Assembly: GCF_006442545.2 (NCBI RefSeq)
Contig: NZ_CP083952.1
Location: forward strand, 3,321,001 to 3,385,000
From: Mesorhizobium sp. B2-1-8
Lineage (GTDB): Bacteria; Pseudomonadota; Alphaproteobacteria; Rhizobiales; Rhizobiaceae
Direction of reading: 5' to 3'
Length of the DNA: 64,000 nt
The notes under the pieces were generated by a model. The model searched no databases, had not been told where the DNA came from, and saw nothing but the letters and a program-made list of their open reading frames with translations. The position numbers and the translations under genes are program-made. Of this stretch, positions 1-21,117 are shown piece after piece (positions within the stretch are counted from its first letter, which is position 1; each line of letters opens with the position of its first letter).

Positions 1-903
1 GCGCTGGGCTTGTCACACTCGCTTCACGGGGAGCGCCTGCTTCCGGTCGGAACGCTCTACGATCCCTTCATCGAGCGCGGCCTCGATGCGCTCAACTATG
101 CCTGCTACCAGGACGCCCGCTTTGTTCTGGCGGCGACGCCCTCAGGCGTGACGCTGGCGCCCGAAGGCGGAGCGCATCAGTCGATCGCCACGCCGTTGAT
201 CGGCATGGCGCAGGACGGCCTGGCGACGTTCGAGCCGGCCTATGCCGACGAGCTGGCAGTCATCCTGCGTTGGGCATTCGACTACATCCAGCGTTCGGGG
301 GAGGGCGAGCCCGACGCCCACACCTGGCTCCGTGAACAGACCGGAGGTTCGGTCTATTTGAGGCTTTCCACACGATCGATCGAACAGCCAGTCCGGCGGA
401 TGGAGGATCAGCTGGCGCGCGACATCGTCGATGGCGCCTACTGGTTGCGCAAACCTGGGCCGAACGCTGACGTGGTGATCGCCTATTCGGGGGCTGTCGC
501 GCCGGAGGCGGTACAGGCGCTGGGGTTGATGGCCGGCGACCGGCGCGATGTCGGCCTTCTGGCCGTGACCTCGGCCGATCGGCTGAACGCCGGATGGTCA
601 GCCGCGGCCCGGGCGCGCCAGTATGGCCATCCGCGCGCCTCCAGTCATGTCGAGCGCCTGTTGGCCGGTCTCCCGGCCTCATGCGTCATCGTGACGGTGT
701 TGGACGGGCACCCCGCGACTCTGGCCTGGCTGGGATCGGTGCATGGTCATCGCACGCGTGCGCTGGGCGTCGAGCATTTTGGCCAGACCGGTACGATCGC
801 GGATCTCTACCGGCATTACGGTATCGATGCGCAAGGTATCATGGCCGCGGCGCAGTCGGTTTCGGCCGGCAGGCCGCTGCGGCACCTTGGCTCCGCCGCC
901 TGA
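1..903 (+). CDS. Pyruvate dehydrogenase E1-like protein, C-terminal part (5' end outside window)
   Basis: The reading frame is open from the first base, so the gene is cut by the window edge and about 300 C-terminal residues are visible. The segment matches the C-terminal half of thiamine-diphosphate-dependent homodimeric E1 (AceE/transketolase family), with stretches such as GTLYDPFIERGLDAL and ATPSGVTLAPEGGAHQS that are typical of the transketolase C-terminal regions. Enzymes of this family decarboxylate a 2-oxo acid. No E2 or E3 gene is visible beside it; instead a small-molecule kinase and two PLP enzymes follow on the right. That suggests a dedicated 2-oxo-acid-using enzyme rather than the housekeeping complex, but this is inference. 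Substrate unknown. Confidence 0.75.
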   Translation, partial: ALGLSHSLHGERLLPVGTLYDPFIERGLDALNYACYQDARFVLAATPSGVTLAPEGGAHQSIATPLIGMAQDGLATFEPAYADELAVILRWAFDYIQRSGEGEPDAHTWLREQTGGSVYLRLSTRSIEQPVRRMEDQLARDIVDGAYWLRKPGPNADVVIAYSGAVAPEAVQALGLMAGDRRDVGLLAVTSADRLNAGWSAAARARQYGHPRASSHVERLLAGLPASCVIVTVLDGHPATLAWLGSVHGHRTRALGVEHFGQTGTIADLYRHYGIDAQGIMAAAQSVSAGRPLRHLGSAA

Positions 904-1029
904 CGATCGATCACGCATCCCCGGCCGGCTCGTTCGATAGAAGGCCGTCAATACCGGAATTCCTTGAGGGCAGATGTCAGCCGTCGGCGCCATCCTCCTC
1001 CGCTGCGAGAAAGCGTGGGGGAGATGAGG

Positions 1030-1968
1030 ATGGTTGGGGCCGGCGATCTTATGAGCCGAGAAACGCTGCGGTCGTCGGTGGGGACGGCAGCGGCGATTGC
1101 GCATCACGGCGAACTCATCCAGGGCGTCTTCAAGGATGATGGCGGGCGCCTTCATCGCGGGCTCGTCACACTGCCGATTGCCGGCTTGAAATCGGAGGCG
1201 AGCTTTTCCAGGAGCGACGGCGATGCAATCGTTGTCCAACCCGATCATAAGGTCAAGGCGTCGGCAGCCGCGCGGCTCACGCTCGATTTCTTGAACGCCA
1301 CCGGCGGTGGCGAGCTGACACTTCGAAGCTCGATTCCTGTGGGGCACGGCTACGGCTCATCGACGGCGGACGTTGTTGCTTCCATTCGCGCTGTCGCCGC
1401 AGCCCTCAAGGTCCAGTTGCGGCCCTCGAGCATCGGGCGTCTGGCCGTTGCCGCCGAGCGCGCCAGCGACGCGATCGCCTTCGACGATCACGCGGTCCTG
1501 TTCGCGCAACGCGAAGGCACGGTGATCGAGAATTTCGGAGGCTCGCTGCCGCCGCTGCTTCTGGTCGGGTTCAAGGCAAATGGCGGCGCTCCCGTCGACA
1601 CATTGCAGCTGCCGCCGGCGCGCTACGACAGTGCCGAAATCCAGGAATTCGGCGTGCTTCGGGCGCTGGTGGCGCGGGCGGTTCGTCTTCAGGATCCATA
1701 TCTTCTCGGACGCGCCGCCTCGGCCAGTGCCTTGATCAGTCAACGGCACTTGCCGAAGCAGGGTTTCGACGAGATCGCCGAAATCGCCAGGCGGGCCGGG
1801 GCGTGCGGGGTGCAAGTCGCCCATAGCGGTTCGTTGTTCGGTCTGATTTTCGATCTTTTCGCATCGAATCTGAAGCGGCGGGCAGCCCTGGTCGCGCAGC
1901 AGATAAGACGCGCCGGCTTCAAGGATGTCGAGGTCCATCTGGTCAACGCGGAGGGCTGGACATGGTGA
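1030..1968 (+). CDS. GHMP-family kinase, PduX (L-threonine kinase)-like
   Basis: A 312-residue GHMP kinase. The ATP-binding motif SIPVGHGYGSSTAD lies at about residues 101-114, and the N-terminal HHGELIQGVF resembles PduX-type L-threonine kinases, which make O-phospho-L-threonine. The start at 1030 is chosen because GGGGGAG ends six bases before it; 1024 and 1051 are alternative in-frame ATGs. The stop overlaps the start of the next gene, a cysteine-synthase-like enzyme, so the two are probably translationally coupled. A kinase activating a hydroxyl-amino acid followed by beta/gamma-replacement PLP enzymes suggests a phospho-amino acid intermediate. The exact substrate (threonine, homoserine, serine or an analogue) cannot be read from sequence. 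Confidence 0.75.
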   Translation: MVGAGDLMSRETLRSSVGTAAAIAHHGELIQGVFKDDGGRLHRGLVTLPIAGLKSEASFSRSDGDAIVVQPDHKVKASAAARLTLDFLNATGGGELTLRSSIPVGHGYGSSTADVVASIRAVAAALKVQLRPSSIGRLAVAAERASDAIAFDDHAVLFAQREGTVIENFGGSLPPLLLVGFKANGGAPVDTLQLPPARYDSAEIQEFGVLRALVARAVRLQDPYLLGRAASASALISQRHLPKQGFDEIAEIARRAGACGVQVAHSGSLFGLIFDLFASNLKRRAALVAQQIRRAGFKDVEVHLVNAEGWTW

Positions 1969-3035
1969 GCCTCGATGTGGACTATTTCAGGGACCTTGAG
2001 ACCCCGCGCCTTGCTCGACTGGCACCAAATCTCGTGGCCGCGGCTTTTCCTCTGATGAAGCTTATGCCGGCCCGCTACATTCTGGATCGGGCAGCGTCGA
2101 ATGGTGAACTGAAGGCAGGCTCCCATATTGTCGAGACGACGTCCGGCACGTTCGGCATGGCGGTGGCGCTGCTCGCGGCGGCGCGTGACTATCGCCTGAC
2201 GCTCGTCACCGCTTCAACACTGATCGATACCAAATACAAAGCTCGCCTGGAGCGTATCGGCGCCACGGTCATCGCGCTTGACGATCCGCGCGGCGACGGC
2301 AACCAGCCTGGCCGGCTCAAGCTCCTGCAGGAAATCCTGGCCAAGGAGCCGGACGGCTTCTGGACCCGCCAATACGACAGTCCCGGTAACTGGCTCGCCT
2401 ATGCGCGGCTGGCTGAACTTTTCATCCGGGCAGTGGGCAGGGTTGACTGCCTGGTCGGCTGCGTCGGTACGGGCGGCTCGCTATGCGGCACAGCATCCTT
2501 TCTGCGAACGGTGTTTCCCCATCTGACGGTATTCGCCGTCGATACCCATCGCAGCATTCTGTTCGGGCAGCCCGTCGGCAAACGCATGCTGCGGGGCTTA
2601 GGCAACAGCGTCCTGCCGAAAAACGTAAGACATGAACTTGTCGACGAGATCCATTGGGTCGGCGCCTATCCCGCGTATATGGCCGCGCACCGCTTGCTGC
2701 GCGAGCAGGGAATCTTCATGGGGCCGACCAGCGGCGCCGCCGCGTTGGTGGCGCAATGGGCTGCAACCACGCTTCCGGACGCGCAGGTCGCGGTCATCAT
2801 GCCTGACGAAGGCCATCGCCATGTCGAGACCGTCTACAATGACGATTGGCTCCGGTCCCTGCCTGGCTGGCCCTGCAAGGAACTGCCTGAGCCGAGGACG
2901 CTGACGACAATCGCACCGGCCGCGGAGACGCAATGGACACGCTTCCTTTGGTTGCGTCGCAGTCTCGACGATGTGCTGAAAGCGCAGGCACCGGATGAGG
3001 TGCCGCCGGCTATCGGCGCTGTGGAAAATCTATGA
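1962..3035 (+). CDS. Cysteine-synthase-family PLP-dependent enzyme
   Basis: A 357-residue fold-type II PLP enzyme of the cysteine synthase / cystathionine beta-synthase family. The probable PLP lysine is K33 and the phosphate/substrate loop is TTSGTFG at residues 59-65, where TSGN is more usual. The glycine-rich GCVGTGGSLCG matches the PLP phosphate-binding loop. The family replaces a beta-substituent (acetyl or phosphate) of serine-like substrates with a nucleophile. Its ATG lies within the last codons of the GHMP kinase, implying one transcript. With that kinase upstream it may use an O-phospho amino acid, as SbnA-type enzymes use O-phosphoserine. The unusual N-terminus and the TSGTF loop argue against a housekeeping CysK. 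Confidence 0.75.
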   Translation: MVSLDVDYFRDLETPRLARLAPNLVAAAFPLMKLMPARYILDRAASNGELKAGSHIVETTSGTFGMAVALLAAARDYRLTLVTASTLIDTKYKARLERIGATVIALDDPRGDGNQPGRLKLLQEILAKEPDGFWTRQYDSPGNWLAYARLAELFIRAVGRVDCLVGCVGTGGSLCGTASFLRTVFPHLTVFAVDTHRSILFGQPVGKRMLRGLGNSVLPKNVRHELVDEIHWVGAYPAYMAAHRLLREQGIFMGPTSGAAALVAQWAATTLPDAQVAVIMPDEGHRHVETVYNDDWLRSLPGWPCKELPEPRTLTTIAPAAETQWTRFLWLRRSLDDVLKAQAPDEVPPAIGAVENL

Positions 3036-4367
3036 AACGAGATCCAGCCCGCTTCTGTCGAGCCAGCGCCAGGCGTCGTCCGTCGTCTGGAAGATCTGAT
3101 CGTGTTCGTTCGATCCAGCGGACCGATCGAGGTCCTTGAGACCGCTGGCTGTCACGACGGCCACGACGCGGTCTGTGGCTGCGATGATACCTTGGTCCTT
3201 GAGCGTCGAAATGGCGATTAGCGGCGTGACCGACGCCAGTTCGGCAAAGATACCTTCGTCCCGCGCAAGCCGTTCCTGCATCGCGATCAGCCCGTGATTG
3301 TTGACGGGGACGGCGTGCCCGCCGGAGTCGCGCAGAGCCTTAAGCGCCTGAAAGGTGCTGCGCGGGGTGCCGATCGAAACGGCAAGGCTGTCGAAGGGCA
3401 TTTTGCGTTCACTCAAGGCATCGGCGCCGCTGGCGAGGGCGTCCGCCAAGGACCCGTGCACCTCTGCGGCGACGAGACGGGGCAGCCGCGTGATCGACCC
3501 TTGCGCGTACAGCTCGCAAAAGCCGGCCCACACGCCCGACAATGCATCGCCATAGCAGACCGGCAGGACGCACCAGTCCGGTGCCGTGCCATCCGATTGC
3601 TCGACGATCTCGTAGGCAATCGTCTTGTAGCCCTCGATGCCGAGTGGATGGCTGCCGACGACTGGACCGTGATAGGGCGAGGCGATGAACCAGTCGTAGC
3701 GGGCAGACGCCTGTTCCAGCATGGACCATCGGTCCATTTTGCTGACCAGGGGCAGGACCGTCGCGCCATATTTTCGGATCTGCGCCAGCATCGCGCCGGC
3801 GGAGTCCGCGAAAGTGGTGACGACGCATTTGAGCCCGGCTCTAGCCGCGTAAGCCGCCAGCGAAGCGCCGGCGTTTCCCGATGAGGCGGTCGCGACGATC
3901 TTCGCGCCGCGTGCGCGCGCCACGCTGACCGCGATGGTCGAGAAGCGGTCCTTGTGCGACCAGGTCGGGTTTCGGCCTTCATCCTTGATTGCAAGATCCG
4001 GCACGCCGAGAAACGAGCCGATACGCGGCGCCGCAAGCAAGGGTGTCAAGCCCTCGCCGAGGCTCACGGCATCCGCGGCTGTGCAAGGCAGCATGTGCGC
4101 AAAGCGCCATAGCGAGCGCGCGGCAGTGGCGCCGTCCAAAAGGGGAGGGTGCGGGGCGACGTAAACCGGCCGAAGGTTTGCCGGCGCGGTGTCTCGGCAC
4201 CGCGCGCACCCTTTGGAGTCGATGGTGACGTTGGCGGGATAGGCAGCGCCGCATCGGATGCAGGCGAACTCCAGGACCCGGCTTTTGTCCATATCGGGAC
4301 GGCTGGTCTCGCCTGAGGAGTGCGCGGACATGTCGTGCGCGAGGTCGCGAAACGGCCGGCTCGCCAT
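3030..4367 (-). CDS. Threonine-synthase-like PLP-dependent enzyme with N-terminal zinc ribbon
   Basis: A 445-residue fold-type II PLP enzyme. An N-terminal zinc ribbon has C36, C39, C54 and C57. LGEGLTPL follows, then the PLP lysine in WSHKDR (K139) and the phosphate loop SSGNAG (162-167), all typical of threonine synthase relatives acting on O-phosphohomoserine. The start at 4367 has AAGGAA upstream; an in-frame extension to 4412 lacks a good site. The gene converges with the cysteine-synthase-like gene, overlapping its end by six bases, and is transcribed away from the HTH gene. Their shared intergenic region carries two palindromes at 4447-4472. Function beyond the family is not established; a housekeeping threonine synthase would not normally sit in this context. 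Confidence 0.75.
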   Translation of the reverse strand: MASRPFRDLAHDMSAHSSGETSRPDMDKSRVLEFACIRCGAAYPANVTIDSKGCARCRDTAPANLRPVYVAPHPPLLDGATAARSLWRFAHMLPCTAADAVSLGEGLTPLLAAPRIGSFLGVPDLAIKDEGRNPTWSHKDRFSTIAVSVARARGAKIVATASSGNAGASLAAYAARAGLKCVVTTFADSAGAMLAQIRKYGATVLPLVSKMDRWSMLEQASARYDWFIASPYHGPVVGSHPLGIEGYKTIAYEIVEQSDGTAPDWCVLPVCYGDALSGVWAGFCELYAQGSITRLPRLVAAEVHGSLADALASGADALSERKMPFDSLAVSIGTPRSTFQALKALRDSGGHAVPVNNHGLIAMQERLARDEGIFAELASVTPLIAISTLKDQGIIAATDRVVAVVTASGLKDLDRSAGSNEHDQIFQTTDDAWRWLDRSGLDLVS

Positions 4368-4445
4368 GGCTATTCCTTGTCCAGGAAACGATGAATTCGC
4401 TGGTTGTTTCAAACAGCCAACAGCGCCGCTGTCAATGCGGAATGT

Positions 4446-4472
4446 GCACTATAGTGTGTCGCACCATAGTGC
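4446..4472. promoter_or_regulatory. Tandem palindromic operators in divergent promoter
   Basis: Two palindromes lie 15 bp apart centre to centre: CACTATAGTG (perfect, 4447-4456) and GCACCATAGTGC (4461-4472, one mismatched pair). The arrangement is like the paired C-boxes bound by controller proteins of restriction-modification systems. They sit 23 bp upstream of the HTH start and 80 bp upstream of the threonine-synthase-like start. TATAGT inside the first box could double as a -10 element. Autoregulation by the adjacent HTH protein is inferred. Confidence 0.6.
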
Positions 4473-4494
4473 GCGTCGTAGCATCCGTTGTTTG

Positions 4495-4761
4495 ATGAAA
4501 CTTCGTGGGGTTTTTGGCCTGAACGTGCAGCGGCTTCGGAGAGAGAGAAAACTCTCTCAGGAGCAGTTGTCTTTCGTTTCGGGCCGCACGCGAGCCTATA
4601 TCAGCAGCGTCGAAGCCGGGAGGCGCAACGCCACCCTGGATACAGTCGAAATTTTGGCCAAGGCATTGAATGTCGACCCGCAAGAGTTGGTTTCGGCAAG
4701 CCCGGCCAATAAGCGAGCTATTCGGGTGACGAAACCTGCCGCTTCAAAGACGGCCGGCTGA
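4495..4761 (+). CDS. Small XRE-family HTH regulator, controller (C-protein)-like
   Basis: An 88-residue protein that is almost entirely one helix-turn-helix domain, with LRRERKLSQEQLSFVSGRTR followed by YISSVEAGRRN and the terminal helix ILAKALNVDPQEL. This is the pattern of C proteins of restriction-modification systems and of QseC-type regulators in Mesorhizobium symbiosis islands. The ATG at 4495 is preferred over an upstream in-frame start at 4258, because the extension would read through the operators and has no family similarity. It is flanked by paired palindromes upstream and by luxR/luxI downstream. It probably represses or balances its own promoter and the divergent PLP-enzyme gene. 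Confidence 0.75.
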   Translation: MKLRGVFGLNVQRLRRERKLSQEQLSFVSGRTRAYISSVEAGRRNATLDTVEILAKALNVDPQELVSASPANKRAIRVTKPAASKTAG

Positions 4762-4805
4762 AGCCAGCCGGCATCAATGTAGTAATGATCGAATTTTCAC
4801 TTATC

Positions 4806-4824
4806 TCACCTTCGTGACAGGTGA
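4806..4824. promoter_or_regulatory. Dyad upstream of luxR, possible lux-box-like site
   Basis: TCACCT and AGGTGA form a perfect 6-bp dyad separated by 7 bp, about 100 bp upstream of the luxR start. Size and the ACCT/AGGT core resemble lux-type boxes bound by LuxR-family activators. No matching site is obvious before luxI. Assignment is inference. Confidence 0.35.
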
Positions 4825-4926
4825 TTGACTCCTTTAGTGTACATTCGATGCGTGTCCTATTGAAGATTGTATCTGAACACGCATAGGTTGTTCTGCGGGT
4901 AGGGCCTGAGTGTAGTCGAGGCTGCC

Positions 4927-5655
4927 ATGGAGAACGAAATTGTTGTTGACCTCTTTGCGGCGATCTCGAAGATCGACACTGCGCTCTCGGCTGATGCAAT
5001 CCTTCAAGAGTTCCGCTCAGCCCTGGCACGCTACGGATTGCGCAGTTTTCTGATCACCGGCCTGCCCGTGCCGCACGATACAGACTGGCAGCGGGAAATC
5101 CTGGGCGATGGCTGGCCTCTCGACTGGTATCGTCGCTACGTGTCCGAGGATCACTTTTTGCACGATCCTTGCGTTGCGCAGTGCCGGCACTCGCCAGAGC
5201 CCTTCCTGTGGCGCGAGCTTCCCGCCGCAAAGCTGTCGACACGCGCGAAGCTGGTGATGGACGAGGCAGCTGAATTCGGGATGAGAGAAGGTATCTGTGT
5301 CCCCATACACGTGCCTCTTTCGGGTCCCAGTGTCGTCACCGCGGCGAGCGACGGGATGGAAGTTGCGCCACGCGAAATGCCCGTTATCGAGACGCTTTGC
5401 GTGCACACTTTTCGGAGCCTCTCGGCGCTGGGAACGCCGGGCGATGGCGATGAGCCCATGCCTTTGACGGCGCGTGAGCGCGAACTTCTGGAGTGGAGCG
5501 CACAAGGCAAGTCCACCGACGACATCGCTTGTATCCTGGGCGTCACCAGGAACACGGTCGAAAGCCATCAGCGCAACATTCGAGGAAAGCTCGACGCGAT
5601 AAACGTGTCCCATGCCATCGTCAAGGCGCTGCGACGGCAGGAAATCCAGATTTAG
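4927..5655 (+). CDS. LuxR-family quorum-sensing transcriptional regulator
   Basis: A 242-residue LuxR-type protein. The N-terminal autoinducer-binding domain keeps the hallmark residues W67, Y71, D80-P81, W95 and the glycine near 118. The C-terminal GerE-type HTH covers about residues 178-235, starting LTARERELLEWSAQGKS with recognition region NTVESHQRNI. It should bind an acyl-homoserine lactone in the cytoplasm and control promoters with lux-type boxes. The synthase gene follows 66 bp downstream in the same direction, so the two form a cognate pair. Which genes it controls is not visible directly; the dyad at 4806-4824 may be its own operator. Confidence 0.9.
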   Translation: MENEIVVDLFAAISKIDTALSADAILQEFRSALARYGLRSFLITGLPVPHDTDWQREILGDGWPLDWYRRYVSEDHFLHDPCVAQCRHSPEPFLWRELPAAKLSTRAKLVMDEAAEFGMREGICVPIHVPLSGPSVVTAASDGMEVAPREMPVIETLCVHTFRSLSALGTPGDGDEPMPLTARERELLEWSAQGKSTDDIACILGVTRNTVESHQRNIRGKLDAINVSHAIVKALRRQEIQI

Positions 5656-5721
5656 CAATACCTGAATACCGTCATACGTACCGCAAGTCCGTTTTCCTAC
5701 GACCCTGCGCCTGGAGGCGTC

Positions 5722-6345
5722 ATGGTTCGTATGCATTTGGTCACCTGGGATAACAGGAAGCACTACAGGAAAGTTCTGGAACGCTACTTTCGCATAAGGT
5801 ACGACATTTACGTCAAGCAGAGGCGGTGGCGCGCCGTCGCCCGGCCCATCAACATCGAGATCGACGCCTTCGACAACGAGCATGCGCTTTATGTCCTGGC
5901 GCTTGACACCAACGGCAAGATCGTCGGCGGCTCCCGTCTCGTGCCGACGCTGGAGCCGCATCTGATGAGCGAGGTCTTCCCGGTTCTCGCCGGCGGCACG
6001 CCGCCGAGAGCGGCTGATATTTTCGAATGGACGCGTTTCTTCGTCGATCCATCGCTTCGCACGCACGGCGCCTCGTCGCCGATCGCCGGCTTCGTTCTCT
6101 GTGGTCTGCTCGAGACGGCTCAAAGGCTGGGGATTCGACAGATCAGCGTGGTATGCGAAACATTCTGGCCAAAACGCCTGCGCGCGCTTGGATGGACGCT
6201 CGCCGAACTCGGCGACGTTCTCGAGCATCCGGACGGCGACATTATAGCGCTGCTGATTGACGTCACGCCTGAGGCTATTGAGCAGACGCGGCGCGCTTAT
6301 GGCATAACCGGTGTTATACTTGCGGAGATACCCACCGCCAGCTGA
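5722..6345 (+). CDS. Acyl-homoserine-lactone synthase (LuxI family)
   Basis: A 207-residue autoinducer synthase that condenses S-adenosylmethionine with an acyl carrier to give an acyl-homoserine lactone. The invariant LuxI residues are present: R26, W36, D48, D51, R72, E102 and R105, in the contexts RRW, EIDAFD and FEWTRFFVD. CTGGAGG lies upstream of the ATG at a good distance. It follows luxR in the same orientation, so this is a complete luxRI module. The acyl chain cannot be predicted. The C-terminal part is of normal length, with no sign of damage. Confidence 0.92.
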   Translation: MVRMHLVTWDNRKHYRKVLERYFRIRYDIYVKQRRWRAVARPINIEIDAFDNEHALYVLALDTNGKIVGGSRLVPTLEPHLMSEVFPVLAGGTPPRAADIFEWTRFFVDPSLRTHGASSPIAGFVLCGLLETAQRLGIRQISVVCETFWPKRLRALGWTLAELGDVLEHPDGDIIALLIDVTPEAIEQTRRAYGITGVILAEIPTAS

Positions 6346-6976
6346 AGTTCCCCAGCAGTAGGCCGCCAATCGATCGCGAATTGTAGAACTATCCGACAAC
6401 CACTTTGGGGCCGTTTCCAGCCCGTCCGGTTATGGACGAGCTTGGCGATAACCTGACACTCTCCAACGGCTTTCAACGAATCTTGGAACAGCTACGGTTG
6501 GCTTCGCCGGCAGAAGCGAGTCCATTGTTTGCGCGCTATTAACGCTGGCGCAATCATCCCGTTCTAGAGAGCTTGCCGCAAGGCGTTACGGCTATCCCCT
6601 TATCTTCGCCTCCGGTATGAGCCTGGGATGGTTTTCCCACCAGTACAACGAAGCGACCTCCGGTCTGGAGGCCCTCAGACGTACCGTCCTTAGCGCCTGC
6701 CTCCACTCCACGATATGTGTAGCGAGTGCAGCCGAACTGAACGGGGGCGATGACCCTCGATACGACTTGGGTCCGGGCGGAAAGCTCTATTAGGTCACCA
6801 GCCCCTTATTCGCGCCATACGGGGCATCACGGCTACCGGGCATTCTTGACTGCTGCTGGGGCCTTCCCTGGCGCCGCTGCTAGCGATAGCCTCTAGCGCA
6901 GCAAGTAAAGCCGGACACCAATCCCACAAGTTGAAGCACCTGATGCCCTTACACCGCTTTAAAGCCGGAGGAATGA
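6346..6976. other. Intergenic stretch without recognisable gene
   Basis: About 630 bp between luxI and the interrupted Lar-like gene. The short ORFs here have no recognisable motif or convincing ribosome binding site. No terminator with a T-run or tRNA was seen. Confidence 0.5.
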
Positions 6977-7020: not shown

Positions 7021-8452
7021 CACTACTTTGGCGGATTTTTAGTTCTGGGAGCGTTTTGAGGATTCCCAAGAGCGGTTTTGCGTGATTCATGAGAGGTCGG
7101 CTGTTGGAGGGCCGGCCATGAACAGGGATTGGCAAGTCGATCTGGAGCAGTGGCTTGAGCCGTTCGTCTCGGCGTTGAGGCACAAGACGCGTGCGCGGAT
7201 GTGTCCGGCCTATATTGCTGGGCTGATTGGCCTTGGGGATCGCAAGAGCATCCAACCGATGGCGGCGCGCGACGCAGGCGTCAATTATGACCAGCTGCAC
7301 CACTTCATCGCGAGCGGCGTGTGGGATGCTGCGCCGCTGGAGAAGGTGCTACTTGCGGAGGCCGACAGACAAGTTGGCGGGAACGATGCGTGGCTGATCG
7401 TGGACGACACCGCGCTCCCCAAGAAGGGGCGCCACTCGGTCGGCGTCGCGCCGCAATATGCCTCGGCGCTTGGCAAGAACGCCAACTGCCAGACGCTGGT
7501 GTCGCTGACGCTGGCCTCTGGCGAAGTGCCGGTCATGGTGGGGCTGCGGCTGTTTCTGCCCGAGAGCTGGACTTCCGATCCCGCCCGGCTCGACCGTGCC
7601 GGTGTGCCCGCGGACCATCGTGCCTACAGGACCAAGCCCGAAATCGCGCTGGCCGAGATCGACCGGGCTCGCGCAGCCGGCCTACGCTTTGGCTGCGTGC
7701 TCGCCGATGCCGGATATGGCTTGAGCGCCCCCTTCCGGCAGGCGCTCACCGAGCGCGGCCTTACCTGGGCCGTCGGTATCCCGTTCAAGCAGAAGGTCTA
7801 TCCCGCCGACGTGGCAATGATCTTTCCCCTTGCCGGACGCGGCCGTCCGCGCCAGCGGCATATCCCCGATGTGAAGTCGATGACCGCGCAGGCGATGCTG
7901 GAGACAGCCCCATGGCGTGCGGTCAGTTGGCGGCGTGGCACCAAAGGCCGCCTCTCGGCGCGCTTCGCCGCTGTCCGTGTCCGGGTTGCAGATGGCCCAC
8001 CCCAGCGCATCCGCGACATGGGCGCTCAGCATCTGCCCGGCGAGGAGGTCTGGGTGATCGGCGAGCACCGCTCGACCGGCGAGCGCAAATACTACCTCTC
8101 CAACTTGCCCGCCGACACCCCGCTCAAGCAGATCGCAGGCGCCATCAAGGCGCGCTGGGTCTGCGAACAGGCGCATCAGCAGCTCAAGGAGGAACTTGGC
8201 CTCGACCACTTCGAGGGGCGCTCATGGACGGGCCTGCACCGGCACGCGCTGATGACTATGATCGCCTACGCTTTCCTGCAATCTCGCCGTCTTAAACAAG
8301 CGGGAGGGGGAAAAAAGAATCCTTGGCCCGCCGCCCCAACCGAGCCTACCCGCCGTCAGGCAAGCCATCCTCACCGCGCTCGCGCAGCCGCCCCCAATCC
8401 GTTGTCCCCACTGCCGCAGAACCCTCTCTGCTAAAGATCTGCCAAAGTAGTG
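7021..8452 (+). mobile_element. IS701-family insertion sequence, copy 1
   Basis: A complete element of 1432 bp. Terminal inverted repeats read CACTACTTTGGCGGAT on the left and CACTACTTTGGCAGAT on the right (reverse complement). It is flanked by a 4-bp TTAG target duplication at 7017-7020 and 8453-8456. It disrupts the Lar-like gene. It is related to, but clearly diverged from, copy 2 at 19677-21117. Confidence 0.9.
7117..8434 (+). CDS. IS701-family DDE transposase (copy 1)
   Basis: Transposase with the IS701/IS4-type layout: IVDDTALPKKG holds the first catalytic aspartate, VLADAGYG the second, and the C-terminal region WVCEQAHQQLKEELGLDHFEGRSW the glutamate segment. The ATG at 7117 matches the start of the second copy; an upstream in-frame start at 7082 is less likely. 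After a GGGGG-A6 run at 8306-8316 the zero-frame tail becomes low-complexity. The +1 frame instead encodes a plausible tail (PPQPSLPAVRQAIL then a CPHC motif) ending at 8450, next to the right inverted repeat. Copy 2 shows the same offset, so a frameshifted product is possible. Confidence 0.85.
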
Positions 8453-8662: not shown

Positions 8663-8700
8663 ATCCCTCCTCAAACGGCGAATGTGTGTCGCATGGGGAG

Positions 8701-8712
8701 GCACTATAGTGA
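8701..8712. promoter_or_regulatory. CACTATAGTG palindrome overlapping the recombinase start codon
   Basis: The perfect 10-bp palindrome at 8702-8711 is identical to the first operator box at 4447-4456. It lies between the GGGGAGG ribosome binding site (8694-8700) and the GTG start at 8709, overlapping that codon. A protein bound here could block expression. A second shared 10-mer, GTGTGTCGCA, occurs at 8684-8693 and at 4454-4463. Confidence 0.5.
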
Positions 8713-10115
8713 CTAATGTGACGACTGAGCTTCGCGTTCCAGCGGCGCAGTACATTCGCATGTCAACAGAGCACCAGCGCTATTCTCTTGAAAACCAGAT
8801 CCCTGCCATTGCGGAGTATGCCGAGACACGGGGCTTCGCTATTGTCCAGACCTATTCCGATGCCGGTAAGAGCGGCTTGAGCTTGAAAGGGAGAGAGGGA
8901 CTCAAGCAGTTGTTGGGCGACGTGGTGACTGGCAGGCGCAGTTATTCGGCAGTTTTGGTTCTGGACGTTAGCCGGTGGGGCCGCTTTCAGGATGCTGATC
9001 AATCCGCACATTATGAGTTCCTGTGTCGAGATGCAGGGGTTGCGGTGGAATACTGCGGCGAGCCGTTCGAGAACGACGGCAGTATGGTTTCGTCAATCGT
9101 GAAGAATCTAAAGCGGGTGATGGCGGGCGAGTTCAGCCGTGAGCTCTCGGCCAAAGTCTCAAGGGCGCAGAAGCAGCAGGCCAGCCTTGGATTTAAGCAA
9201 GGCGGCCAAATGCCTTATGGAACAAGACGAATGCTCGTTAGCAAAGATCGGGAACCTCGATTTCTCCTCGGACCGGGCGAACAAAAGGGGCTAGACACCG
9301 ATCGTGTTGTCTTTGTGCCGGGCCCAGGCGAGGAGATCGGGATCGTCCGACGCATTTTCCGGATGTTCGTTGACCAAAGACGAAGCATGAGCAGCATTGC
9401 GAAAAAGCTAAACGAGGAAGGTGTGCCTTCAACAGACGGTTGGCGGTGGACATTGGGGCGGGTCAGAACCGTTCTGAAAAGCGAGTTGATGATCGGATAT
9501 TATGTCTTCAACCGAACCACAGGGCGATTGAGAGGGCCGTCTCGACCAAATCCTCCGAACCTATGGGTCAGAACACGGGTCATGGAGCCGATTGTGGACT
9601 CAAGACAGTTCGCAAAGGCCCAACGGGAGATGGGGTACAAGCGCGGGTACGGCTATGCGAAGTCTGACATGGTCAAAGGCCTTCGTCGGCTTTTGCGAGA
9701 AAAAAAGAAGCTCTCTTCGGACATCATTGACGTCTGCACCTACACGCCTTGCGCACGATCTTATGGAGAGCGTTTTGGAGGCCTACGGGCTGCCTACGCC
9801 ATCGTGGGCTACGAGTGCCGCTGGCGACCTGGGCCGCGTCGCAGATTTTCGGATGAGGAGCTCCTTGATGGCATCCGGCGGCTACACACTGCGTTCGGCC
9901 ATGTTACCATTGCGCTCATCAATGCCGACCCAGACCTACCACGGGCTTTCGTCTTCATGCGGAGATTTGGCACGATGACTAGAGCCTATGGGCTGGCAGG
10001 CTTTCCAACTACTAAGGCAGAGGCATGTTCTGCCGCGCGAAAGAGGGCTAGCCCGCGCCTTCGAGAGGGATTGCGATACGAACCGTCCAGGCCGCGCAGC
10101 GAACGAACCAGATAG
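8709..10115 (+). CDS. Large serine recombinase (site-specific integrase/resolvase family)
   Basis: About 468 residues. The N-terminal resolvase catalytic domain carries the nucleophile in YIRMST (S19), followed by the LDVSRWGR region. A Recombinase domain follows, with arginines near GGQMPYGTRR and KLNEEGVPSTDG. The C-terminus contains two segments resembling homing-endonuclease-associated repeats, each ending RFG...AY...G. The GTG at 8709 is chosen over ATG 8682 because a strong GGGGAGG precedes it. Such enzymes integrate or excise mobile DNA. The orphan hipA follows 21 bp downstream on the same strand. The start overlaps an operator-like palindrome. No attachment site pair was identified. 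Confidence 0.85.
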   Translation: MTNVTTELRVPAAQYIRMSTEHQRYSLENQIPAIAEYAETRGFAIVQTYSDAGKSGLSLKGREGLKQLLGDVVTGRRSYSAVLVLDVSRWGRFQDADQSAHYEFLCRDAGVAVEYCGEPFENDGSMVSSIVKNLKRVMAGEFSRELSAKVSRAQKQQASLGFKQGGQMPYGTRRMLVSKDREPRFLLGPGEQKGLDTDRVVFVPGPGEEIGIVRRIFRMFVDQRRSMSSIAKKLNEEGVPSTDGWRWTLGRVRTVLKSELMIGYYVFNRTTGRLRGPSRPNPPNLWVRTRVMEPIVDSRQFAKAQREMGYKRGYGYAKSDMVKGLRRLLREKKKLSSDIIDVCTYTPCARSYGERFGGLRAAYAIVGYECRWRPGPRRRFSDEELLDGIRRLHTAFGHVTIALINADPDLPRAFVFMRRFGTMTRAYGLAGFPTTKAEACSAARKRASPRLREGLRYEPSRPRSERTR

Positions 10116-19676: not shown

Positions 19677-21117
19677 CACTACTTTGGCAGATTTTTAGCG
19701 GCGGCGCGTTTTTGGAATTCCCAAGAGAGAGTTTGCGTGATTCATGGGAGGTCGGCTTGTGGAGGGCCGATCAATGGATGTGGACTGGCAAGCCGATCTC
19801 GAGCACTGGCTTCAACCGTTTTTGGCAGGTCTTTCGCATCCAGCTCGGCGCCGGATGTGTCCGCTGTACATTGCTGGTCTGATCGGGCCGGGCGACCGTA
19901 AGAGCGTACAACCGATGGCCGCGCGCACTGGCGAGGTCGGCTACGATCAGCTTCATCATTTCGTCGCGGCAGGGGTTTGGGACAGCGCCCCGCTCGAGGC
20001 CGCCCTGCTGAAGGAGGCAGATCGCCTGGTCGGCGATGAGGCGGGTTTTCTCGTCATCGACGACACAGCGTTACCGAAGAAGGGACAACATTCGGTTGGT
20101 GTCGCGCCTCAATACGCTTCGTCGCTTGGCAAGACGTCCAATTGCCAGTCACTGGTGTCGGTGACCCTGGCCTCGCGCGAAGTGCCGGTGATGGTGGGCC
20201 TTCGGCTCTTCCTGCCCGACACCTGGACGAATGATCCCGAGCGGATGATGCGGGCGCGCGTCCCGAAGGATCGACAGGTCGCTCTGACAAAGCCGGAGAT
20301 CGCCATCGAAGAGATCGATCGTATCATCGCCTCCGGCGTGCGTTTCGGCTGCGTGCTTGCCGACGCGGGTTACGGGTCGAGCAGCTCTTTTCGTCAGGCT
20401 TTAAGTGAGCGCGGTCTGCTGTGGGCTGTAGGACTATCGCGACGCCAAAACGTCTATCCGGCCGATGTTGATCTGATCTTCCCGGTCGCGACCACCGGCA
20501 GGCGCCGCCAATATCATGTCCCAGACCAGCCGCCGGTCTCTGCCGAGGTGATGCTGTCTGGTGAGAGATGGCACAAGATAAGCTGGCGGCGCGGCACTAA
20601 AGGTCGGCTGACATGCCTCTTTGCGGCTCGCCGTGTCCGCGTTGCGGATGGTCATAAGCACCGGATGCTCGACAATCGCGTGCAATGCATGCCAGGCGAC
20701 GAGGTCTGGCTCGTCGGCGAACGCCGGTCGACTGGCGAGCAAAAATACTATGTGTCGAACCTACCGGCCGATGCGAGCCTCAAGATGCTCGCCGCCACGA
20801 TCAAGGCCAGGTGGGTTTGTGAGCAGGCACATCAGCAATTGAAGGAGGAACTCGGCCTCGACCACTTCGAAGGCCGATCATGGACTGGATTACATCGACA
20901 TGCCTTGATGACCATGATCGCCTACGCCTTTCTCCAAGCCCGCCGCCTCAAAGCAGCGGGACGAAAAAAAAAGAGTCGGCGGACCACCGCCACAACCGAG
21001 CATGCCAGCTGTTAGACAAGCCATTCTCGACCTCTTCACGCGATCGCCACCCCGCAGATGTCCTCACTGTCAGAAGCTGCCCGCACACGCCCTCAAACCT
21101 AAACTGCCAAAGTAGTG
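19677..21117 (+). mobile_element. IS701-family insertion sequence, copy 2
   Basis: A 1441-bp element with CACTACTTTGGCAGAT at both ends and a CTAG target duplication at 19673-19676 and 21118-21121. The left CTAG is formed by the last base of the IS5 element plus TAG, so this insertion postdates the IS5 element and abuts it exactly. Confidence 0.9.
19774..21015 (+). CDS. IS701-family DDE transposase (copy 2)
   Basis: Homologous to the transposase at 7117 along its full length, with VIDDTALPKKG, VLADAGYG and the QAHQQLKEELGLDHFEG segment all present. The ATG at 19774 is used; an in-frame start at 19744 exists. The zero frame ends soon after an A9 run (20964-20972). The +1 frame continues with PPPQPSMPAVRQAILDLF and a RCPHC motif to a stop immediately before the right inverted repeat. 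Copy 1 has the same tail and the same frame offset, so a frameshifted full-length product may be the functional transposase. Confidence 0.85.
   Translation: MDVDWQADLEHWLQPFLAGLSHPARRRMCPLYIAGLIGPGDRKSVQPMAARTGEVGYDQLHHFVAAGVWDSAPLEAALLKEADRLVGDEAGFLVIDDTALPKKGQHSVGVAPQYASSLGKTSNCQSLVSVTLASREVPVMVGLRLFLPDTWTNDPERMMRARVPKDRQVALTKPEIAIEEIDRIIASGVRFGCVLADAGYGSSSSFRQALSERGLLWAVGLSRRQNVYPADVDLIFPVATTGRRRQYHVPDQPPVSAEVMLSGERWHKISWRRGTKGRLTCLFAARRVRVADGHKHRMLDNRVQCMPGDEVWLVGERRSTGEQKYYVSNLPADASLKMLAATIKARWVCEQAHQQLKEELGLDHFEGRSWTGLHRHALMTMIAYAFLQARRLKAAGRKKKSRRTTATTEHASC

Follow-up and report, generated by a model that had tools for sequence, protein, structure and literature searches.

A stretch of 64,000 nucleotides from the genome of Mesorhizobium sp. 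B2-1-8 (contig NZ_CP083952.1, positions 3,321,001 to 3,385,000; hereafter the window) was analysed, and its first 6,345 positions were found to carry a set of metabolic genes next to a quorum-sensing pair. The set comprises an E1-like thiamine diphosphate (ThDP) enzyme, a PduX-like GHMP kinase, two pyridoxal phosphate (PLP) enzymes resembling SbnA and threonine synthase (ThrC), a small helix-turn-helix (HTH) regulator, luxR and luxI (Table 1). Open reading frames (ORFs) and family profile searches showed that all of these genes are open, intact and in place, confirming the gene families named in the initial annotation. The ThrC-like gene is convergent with the pair formed by the kinase and the SbnA-like enzyme. 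The kinase matches GHMP_kinases_N with 43.1 bits. The luxR product has both domains of an acyl-homoserine lactone (AHL) receptor (Autoind_bind, 90.8 bits; GerE, 56.6 bits), and the luxI product matches Autoind_synth with 76.1 bits (cut-off 24) and possesses the R, W, D, D, R, E and R residues which are invariant in all 40 aligned sequences. Alignments were built from stop-free rows above a coverage limit, the window included, and hold 72 rows for the SbnA-like enzyme, 50 for the ThrC-like enzyme, 21 for the E1 and 40 for LuxI. A scan for sigma-70 promoters between positions 880 and 6500 found none.

Table 1. Genes and candidate regulatory sites of the locus (window positions).
Feature	Position	Strand	Remarks
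E1-like AceE/transketolase-like ThDP enzyme, C-terminal part	1..903	+	793 amino acids when whole; start at L006:2522, 1479 bases before the window
lux-box-like dyad ATACCGGAATTCCTTGAG, upstream of the kinase	951..968	+	12.0 with the luxI-site matrix; core located exactly
PduX-like kinase of the GHMP family, likely to O-phosphorylate L-threonine or a related compound	1030..1968	+	start at 1030 or 1051
PLP enzyme of the SbnA/cysteine-synthase kind, likely to catalyse beta-replacement on a phospho-amino acid	1962..3035	+	overlaps the kinase stop
Threonine-synthase-like (ThrC-like) PLP enzyme, probably catabolic (elimination/ammonia-lyase type)	3030..4367	-	
Paired dyads CACTATAGTG-N5-CACCATAGTG, candidate C-box type operator between the ThrC-like and HTH genes	4447..4471		
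Small HTH (C-protein/Xre-like) regulator	4495..4761	+	
LuxR-family AHL receptor	4927..5655	+	
lux-box-like dyad ATACCTGAATACCGTCAT, upstream of luxI	5658..5675	+	
LuxI-family AHL synthase	5722..6345	+	catalytic residues conserved

Judged by its sequence, the kinase is a distant relative of PduX; it aligns with annotated PduX at 33% over 183 amino acids (61.6 bits) and carries the SSTAD and AHSGS motifs. Some sources call its relatives threonine kinase and one says mevalonate kinase, and this genome has just one other GHMP kinase. The SbnA-like PLP enzyme reaches 195.5 bits with the SbnA model (TIGR03945), below the cut-off of 349.95. Its fold is of the cysteine synthase (CysK) type and its closest solved relative is SbnA itself (137 bits). 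The catalytic lysine K33 and the residues R118 and Y138, equivalent to R132 and Y152 of SbnA, are each present in 72 of 72 sequences, and the position matching SbnA S185 is glycine in all 72. R132, Y152 and S185 are taken here to act in the use of O-phosphoserine by SbnA; variants of Y152 and S185 exist among PDB entries. A tree of the module enzymes and 14 further PALP proteins encoded in this genome has several long branches and unsure deep joins; in it, the SbnA-like enzymes formed one clade (100/100) apart from the four CysK-like proteins of the genome. The ThrC-like proteins also formed a clade (99/99), apart from another protein of this genome (L173) whose sequence suggests the housekeeping threonine synthase of the long type.

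The ThrC-like enzyme scored 136.1 bits against the threonine synthase model TIGR00260, below 167.1. Its PLP lysine K123 is conserved in 50 of 50 sequences, and these enzymes have four N-terminal cysteines of which the first two are found in 47 of 50 (three gaps). N154, S155, R160 and N188 of Thermus thermophilus threonine synthase, presumably the positions which bind the phosphate of O-phosphohomoserine, correspond to V221, G222, G227 and Y256 in the window protein. None of the 50 sequences has the original residue at any of the four positions, while the replacing residues are themselves conserved (G222 in 50, G227 in 48, Y256 in 49), making a threonine synthase unlikely. The initial annotation had taken both PLP enzymes as members of families able to use O-phospho or O-acyl amino acids; use of an O-phospho amino acid is supported in part for the SbnA-like enzyme, through its arginine and tyrosine positions, and is not supported for the ThrC-like enzyme. 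The E1-like protein keeps the ThDP motif, of which GDAE and DYN are shared by all 21 aligned sequences.

The distribution of the module was followed by scanning one genome per species with the kinase alignment, which gave 186 confirmed places; locus counts use the best 80 of these 186. A gene was scored as present at 30-35% identity over 35% of the query. Grouping the kinases at 75% identity reduced the 80 loci to 43 clusters, and two partly overlapping locus sets were used and never summed. Among the 80 loci, the SbnA-like enzyme was found in 73, the ThrC-like gene in 52, the HTH gene in 46, luxR in 42 and luxI in 41, so the neighbourhood is conserved with luxRI well outside this strain. The other genes recorded were Lrp (25 loci), E1 (21), M24 (20), GNAT (19), argH (12) and DoeB-like (11). 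luxI was present in 41 of the 52 loci with a ThrC-like gene and in none of the 28 without it, and all 17 of the 43 clusters which have luxI also have the ThrC-like gene (Fisher p 2.4e-7). The spacing between the kinase and SbnA-like genes was -18 to 156 bp in the 76 of 80 loci where it was measurable. This spacing and the association of luxI with the ThrC-like gene by clusters indicate a linkage of more than chance. argH was never found at loci with luxI or the ThrC-like gene. GNAT accompanied DoeB-like genes in 10 of 11 loci and in 7 of 7 clusters (p 1e-5). M24 and DoeB-like genes never occurred at one locus, an exclusion not significant by clusters (p 0.17), and M24 was accompanied by IclR in 9 of 10 clusters. 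Among 297 genomes from the family, 21 carry the kinase (this genome counted; three are weak, near E 1e-3), and among 397 from the order, 5 carry the SbnA-like enzyme at E<=1e-60 (again with this genome). The module is an accessory trait.

Five arrangements were distinguished (< is written as before the convergent ThrC-like gene of the window, and a slash separates units). Type I, that of the window, reads Lrp / E1-kinase-PLP < ThrC / HTH-luxR-luxI and is mostly found with an Ehu transporter. Type II (Aminobacter, Bosea and some Mesorhizobium) reads kinase-PLP < ThrC / HTH-luxR-luxI-GNAT < DoeB-like, EhuACDB, and type III reads kinase-PLP < transporter, ThrC, M24, IclR / HTH-luxR-luxI. In type IV (Azospirillum, Amycolatopsis, Ktedonobacteraceae, a Woesearchaeote and others) the kinase and PLP enzyme occur in varying order with ATP-grasp and argH genes and no lux genes; these sister sets resemble the route from threonine to 2,3-diaminobutyrate. 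Type V (Cupriavidus, Paraburkholderia and some Mesorhizobium) is kinase-PLP-GNAT, and in Cupriavidus and Mesorhizobium L-2-11 (L040, L043) PLP enzyme and GNAT form a single reading frame. The order Lrp-E1-kinase-PLP-ThrC-HTH-luxR-luxI lies on plasmids of Mesorhizobium 113-3-3, B2-1-1 and MAFF303099 (pMLb), the order kinase-PLP-ThrC-HTH-luxR-luxI on plasmids of Aminobacter MSH1, A. aminovorans and Bosea Tri-49, and the kinase-PLP pair without nearby lux genes on plasmids of Agrobacterium pusense, Bradyrhizobium elkanii and Mesorhizobium B1-1-8. A Paracoccus saliphilus plasmid (L037:9888-10840) has a reduced Lrp-E1-kinase-luxI set beside trb genes, where a ThrC-like gene was not seen and the matches to PLP and luxR cover 40% and 71%, respectively. 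A different set was noticed on Rhizobium leguminosarum pRL23b2 (L156:5127-9618), where a GHMP kinase accompanies NTP transferase, CDP-alcohol phosphatidyltransferase and asparagine-synthase-like genes.

In 41 of 42 loci, that of this genome among them, an 18-bp dyad of at least 14.3 bits lies in the 110 bp preceding luxI; it sits 54-71 bp before the start of the match, and only one locus (L109) has no clear site. An initial dyad search recovered shared sites in only 3 loci because the kinase sites are lopsided, and a matrix approach was used instead. The matrix was built from the luxI-upstream sites alone, the luxI sites were masked, and levels were set by random 200-bp stretches of the same loci. 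Since the loci are related and hence not independent, cluster counts are also reported. Regions upstream of the kinase lie above the 95% level in 38 of 42 loci and 14 of 17 clusters, as do those of GNAT in 8 of 12. The level is rarely or never reached upstream of E1 (0/18), Lrp (1/18), ThrC (1/42), luxR (1/42), DoeB-like (0/8), EhuA (1/25), EhuB (0/21), M24 (0/13), TctA (0/6) and the response regulator (0/11). An earlier pass of the matrix, with 300-bp stretches and the luxI sites unmasked in the background, placed 30 of 42 kinase regions above the 95% and none above the 99% level. The core of the kinase site tends to match that of the luxI site of the same locus (AATT-type or AGATCT-type), as seen by eye and without statistics. 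As the dyad recurs upstream of the kinase and rarely of ThrC or E1, the kinase and the SbnA-like enzyme look to be under direct quorum control. The dedicated quorum-linked pathway suggested by the initial annotation thereby gains support, being kept with luxRI in several genera with lux-box-like dyads before both luxI and the kinase. The outcome that would have made it unlikely, clustering with housekeeping orthologues and a neighbourhood confined to this strain, was not observed.

The E1 and the ThrC-like enzyme had been placed in the same quorum-controlled biosynthesis; this finds no support in the lux-box counts above and in the position of both genes in relatives. One-strand sets of M24-ThrC-Tct-E1 (L117, L118) and ThrC-Tct-E1 (L132) were found, and EhuBCDA and E1 stand together in L058 and L124. 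These transporter and hydrolase operons suggest that ThrC and E1 there belong with uptake and breakdown. The DoeB-like (L034) and M24 (L036) proteins of relatives fall below the ectoine DoeB and DoeA models, with 265.2 of 402.7 and 71.2 of 613 bits, respectively. DoeA is presumably itself an M24-type enzyme, and the M24 proteins here match its models weakly. The predicted structure of the GNAT (predicted local distance difference test, pLDDT, 90.5) matches amine and other GNATs at similar Z, so no acetyltransferase substrate can be read from its fold. Three other clusters with PALP and DoeB-like genes, two of them with amino-acid permeases, were noticed (G000 C2:323097-327959, C2:485055-486961 and C1:5662563-5668955); these are probably ordinary ectoine-type degradation sets.

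Paired dyads of the form CACTATAGTG-N5-CACTATAGTG make up a separate pattern. With at most 8 mismatches of 25, they precede the HTH gene at every locus examined (46 of 46; median 2 mismatches), and they also occur in the 200 bp ahead of IclR (19 of 19). For ThrC and luxR, counted within 200 bp of the match start, the figures are 15 of 51 and 6 of 47 loci. None was seen for the kinase (0/80), luxI (0/41), E1 (0/23) or M24 (0/20), and random stretches gave 12 in 2000. The layout is, we assume, that of the controller (C) proteins of restriction-modification systems; no restriction-modification genes were found next to the module in the annotated plasmid-locus stretches. A putative operator of the C-protein type is thus placed in the stretch shared with the recovery operon.

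On these grounds, and with about even chances of being right, we propose a mobile quorum-controlled module which makes and reclaims an unusual amino acid, leading from L-threonine over O-phosphothreonine to a 2,3-diamino acid. We infer all enzymatic steps, together with the substrate, the nucleophile, the product and the role of the E1, from sequence. LuxR, together with the AHL made by LuxI, would bind the observed dyads at luxI and the kinase and turn on the kinase and the SbnA-like enzyme. The kinase would make an O-phospho-amino acid, most likely O-phospho-L-threonine, from which the SbnA-like enzyme would expel the phosphate in a beta-replacement. Nitrogen is the most likely incoming group, and the product would then be a diamino acid of the 2,3-diaminobutyrate type; such a product is favoured over a thio amino acid. 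The GNAT present in many relatives may then N-acetylate it. In the recovery arm, which has no lux boxes, the compound would be imported by an ectoine-type ABC or a tripartite transporter and the amino acid released by the DoeB-like deacetylase or the M24 hydrolase. The ThrC-like enzyme may then convert it by elimination to a 2-oxo acid to be handled by the E1-like ThDP enzyme. The C-protein-like regulator would work at the operator between its own gene and the recovery operon. A bolder and rather unlikely version of this proposal is an auto-opine, in which carriers of the plasmid or integrative and conjugative element (ICE) would make an ectoine-like N-acetyl or cyclised 2,3-diaminobutyrate at high density under their own AHL, and then reclaim and consume it.

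Several observations weigh against the make-and-reclaim proposal. Kinase-upstream sites exceed the 99% level in 10 of 42 loci only, the site in the window is a lopsided dyad of 12.0 bits, and the 95% level is also reached upstream of HTH (4/42) and IclR (3/14). E1 precedes the kinase on the same strand in the window, as in other type I loci, making read-through from E1 into the kinase possible. Kinase-PLP pairs also exist without luxI, which is missing from 39 of 80 loci, and the pathway itself therefore does not depend on quorum control. Serine and homoserine are further possible substrates of the kinase. An argH-like nitrogen-donor partner was found at none of the 41 luxI loci (SbnB/OCD-type genes were not searched for) and at none of the 52 ThrC-bearing loci (DabB/VioK-type genes were not searched for). 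No GNAT, DoeB-like or M24 gene was seen next to the module of the window, a search made without positive control found no GNAT relative in this genome, and no exporter was identified at luxI loci. The alignment of the E1 starts at AceE residue 76, and the position of AceE H407 is an invariant glycine (21/21). We take the AceE N-terminus to be the E2-binding region and likewise assume a role for H407; their loss makes acyl transfer to a standard E2 doubtful and the last step uncertain.

Of the other readings, the use of serine by the kinase, with a 2,3-diaminopropionate derivative as product, is unlikely. The closest solved relative, SbnA, does yield L-2,3-diaminopropionate (L-Dap; PMC3179956), but the kinase is PduX-like with relatives named as above, a dedicated E1 would hardly be needed for pyruvate, and the score well under the SbnA cut-off and the glycine at the S185 position also weigh against this reading. 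It is similarly improbable that the SbnA-like enzyme uses a thiol or carbon nucleophile to make a beta-substituted aminobutyrate antimetabolite, the ThrC-like enzyme and hydrolases serving for self-protection. Its CysK-like fold and the lack of an argH-type partner at luxI loci would agree with this, whereas the GNAT partner (with a fold near amine acetyltransferases among others), the DoeB-like deacetylase and the ectoine-type uptake fit an amine or amide, and argH is present in sister loci.

That luxRI merely time conjugation, the metabolic genes being passive cargo of a mobile element, has a small probability. The module does lie between traG and trbB on Mesorhizobium elements, luxI stands beside trb genes without a ThrC-like gene on the Paracoccus plasmid, and ICE transfer in Mesorhizobium is under quorum-sensing control (PMC8627217). 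Against this stand the lux box at the kinase, the finding that luxI never occurred without a ThrC-like gene in the 80 loci, and several luxI loci (e.g. L096, L120 and L129) which match none of the traG, relaxase and trb queries used. Ordinary threonine or cysteine metabolism duplicated on a plasmid is hardly credible; public annotation does name a cysteine synthase and a threonine synthase, but the separate clades (100/100 and 99/99), the replaced phosphate-site positions and the linkage to lux genes speak against it, and it was rejected on the PALP tree and the residues. A threonine synthase paired with a homoserine kinase, or a recycling of AHL-derived homoserine, was rejected as the leading explanation in view of the same ThrC positions and the PduX-like kinase. 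A siderophore precursor was also set aside, as no siderophore genes were noticed among the annotated neighbours of luxI plasmid loci, where no systematic search was made.

The module shares parts with several known systems. The GHMP kinase DabC is presumably the third partner of the Dab route. DabA and DabB lead from threonine to 2,3-diaminobutyrate through beta-replacement by a CysK-like PLP enzyme (PMC4052310), and the likeness to DabABC (friulimicin, laspartomycin, mureidomycin) lies in this threonine-derived step. Unlike DabABC, the module has no argH-type partner at its luxI loci, is lux-linked and paired with uptake and catabolic genes, and no peptide synthetase was noticed among its annotated plasmid neighbours. 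SbnA of staphyloferrin B (L-Dap) is the best solved relative, with the catalytic lysine and the R132 and Y152 positions kept; the module enzyme differs in the S185 position and in its score, and no siderophore genes were noticed around it as stated above. The kinase resembles the L-threonine kinase PduX in its alignment and motifs, but it is accompanied by a PLP enzyme at 73 of 80 loci, and no propanediol-utilisation genes were noticed among annotated neighbours. Ectoine degradation combines EhuABCD with the hydrolase DoeA/EutD and the deacetylase DoeB/EutE, and an AsnC regulator is often present (PMC5924519). With the EhuB model, the EhuB of this locus scores 206.3 bits (cut-off 190.9), and DoeB-like, M24 and Lrp/AsnC genes recur at the loci, while the DoeB-like and M24 proteins of relatives score below the ectoine models. 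QseC is assumed here to resemble C proteins. The TraR/TraI-QseC/QseM control of Mesorhizobium ICEs (PMC8627217) likewise joins luxRI with a small HTH regulator on related conjugative elements; in contrast, the luxI of the module falls well short of the TraI model (61.3 of 292 bits) and its dyad lies at a metabolic operon. No description of the module was found in open-licence literature, most subscription papers lying outside the search. In the parts of the sources available, a survey of luxR-linked clusters (PMC5872303) has no rhizobia, Mesorhizobium or pyridoxal in its main text, and the Mesorhizobium ICE survey (PMC8627217) names pMLb with no mention of cysteine synthase or threonine synthase.

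The proposed module would account for a luxRI set which is carried by plasmids and genomes of several soil and root-nodule genera (Mesorhizobium, Aminobacter, Bosea, Stappia and others), and AHL signalling would thereby have a specific metabolic outcome in them. It would point to a diamino-acid-type metabolite with built-in uptake and breakdown, possibly an unrecognised resource or signal between bacteria. In the auto-opine version, the element would impose an economy of nutrient or solute private to its carriers, comparable to that of opines except that the bacterium is itself the producer. As lux-boxed biosynthesis and C-boxed recovery are linked, the question could be tested with few mutants.

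The setting of the locus is that of a mobile element. Just upstream and divergent from E1 lie an Lrp/AsnC-family gene and a gene for an EhuB-like solute-binding protein, followed further upstream by traG and relaxase genes, while EhuACD and trbB onward lie near C1:3396000, about 67 kb downstream of the module. Homology to the plasmids of Mesorhizobium sp. 113-3-3 (L032) and B2-1-1 (L045) ends near window position 6413 and resumes about 67 kb on, indicating that an insertion split the element and that the module originally lay between traG and trbB. The inserted DNA reaches from window position 6414 to about C1:3394818 (L073:9818) and parts luxI from the block of response regulator, EhuACD and trbB. 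Two ORFs of this stretch (window 7082-8434 and 19744-21015) have similar translations, predicted to be transposase-like. A second exact CACTATAGTG palindrome was found at window 8702-8711, in the start of a recombinase-looking ORF (8682-10115). A short extra traG fragment lies beside EhuB on the plasmids (L032:5346-5684 and L045:9397-9615), possibly a scar of cargo entry.

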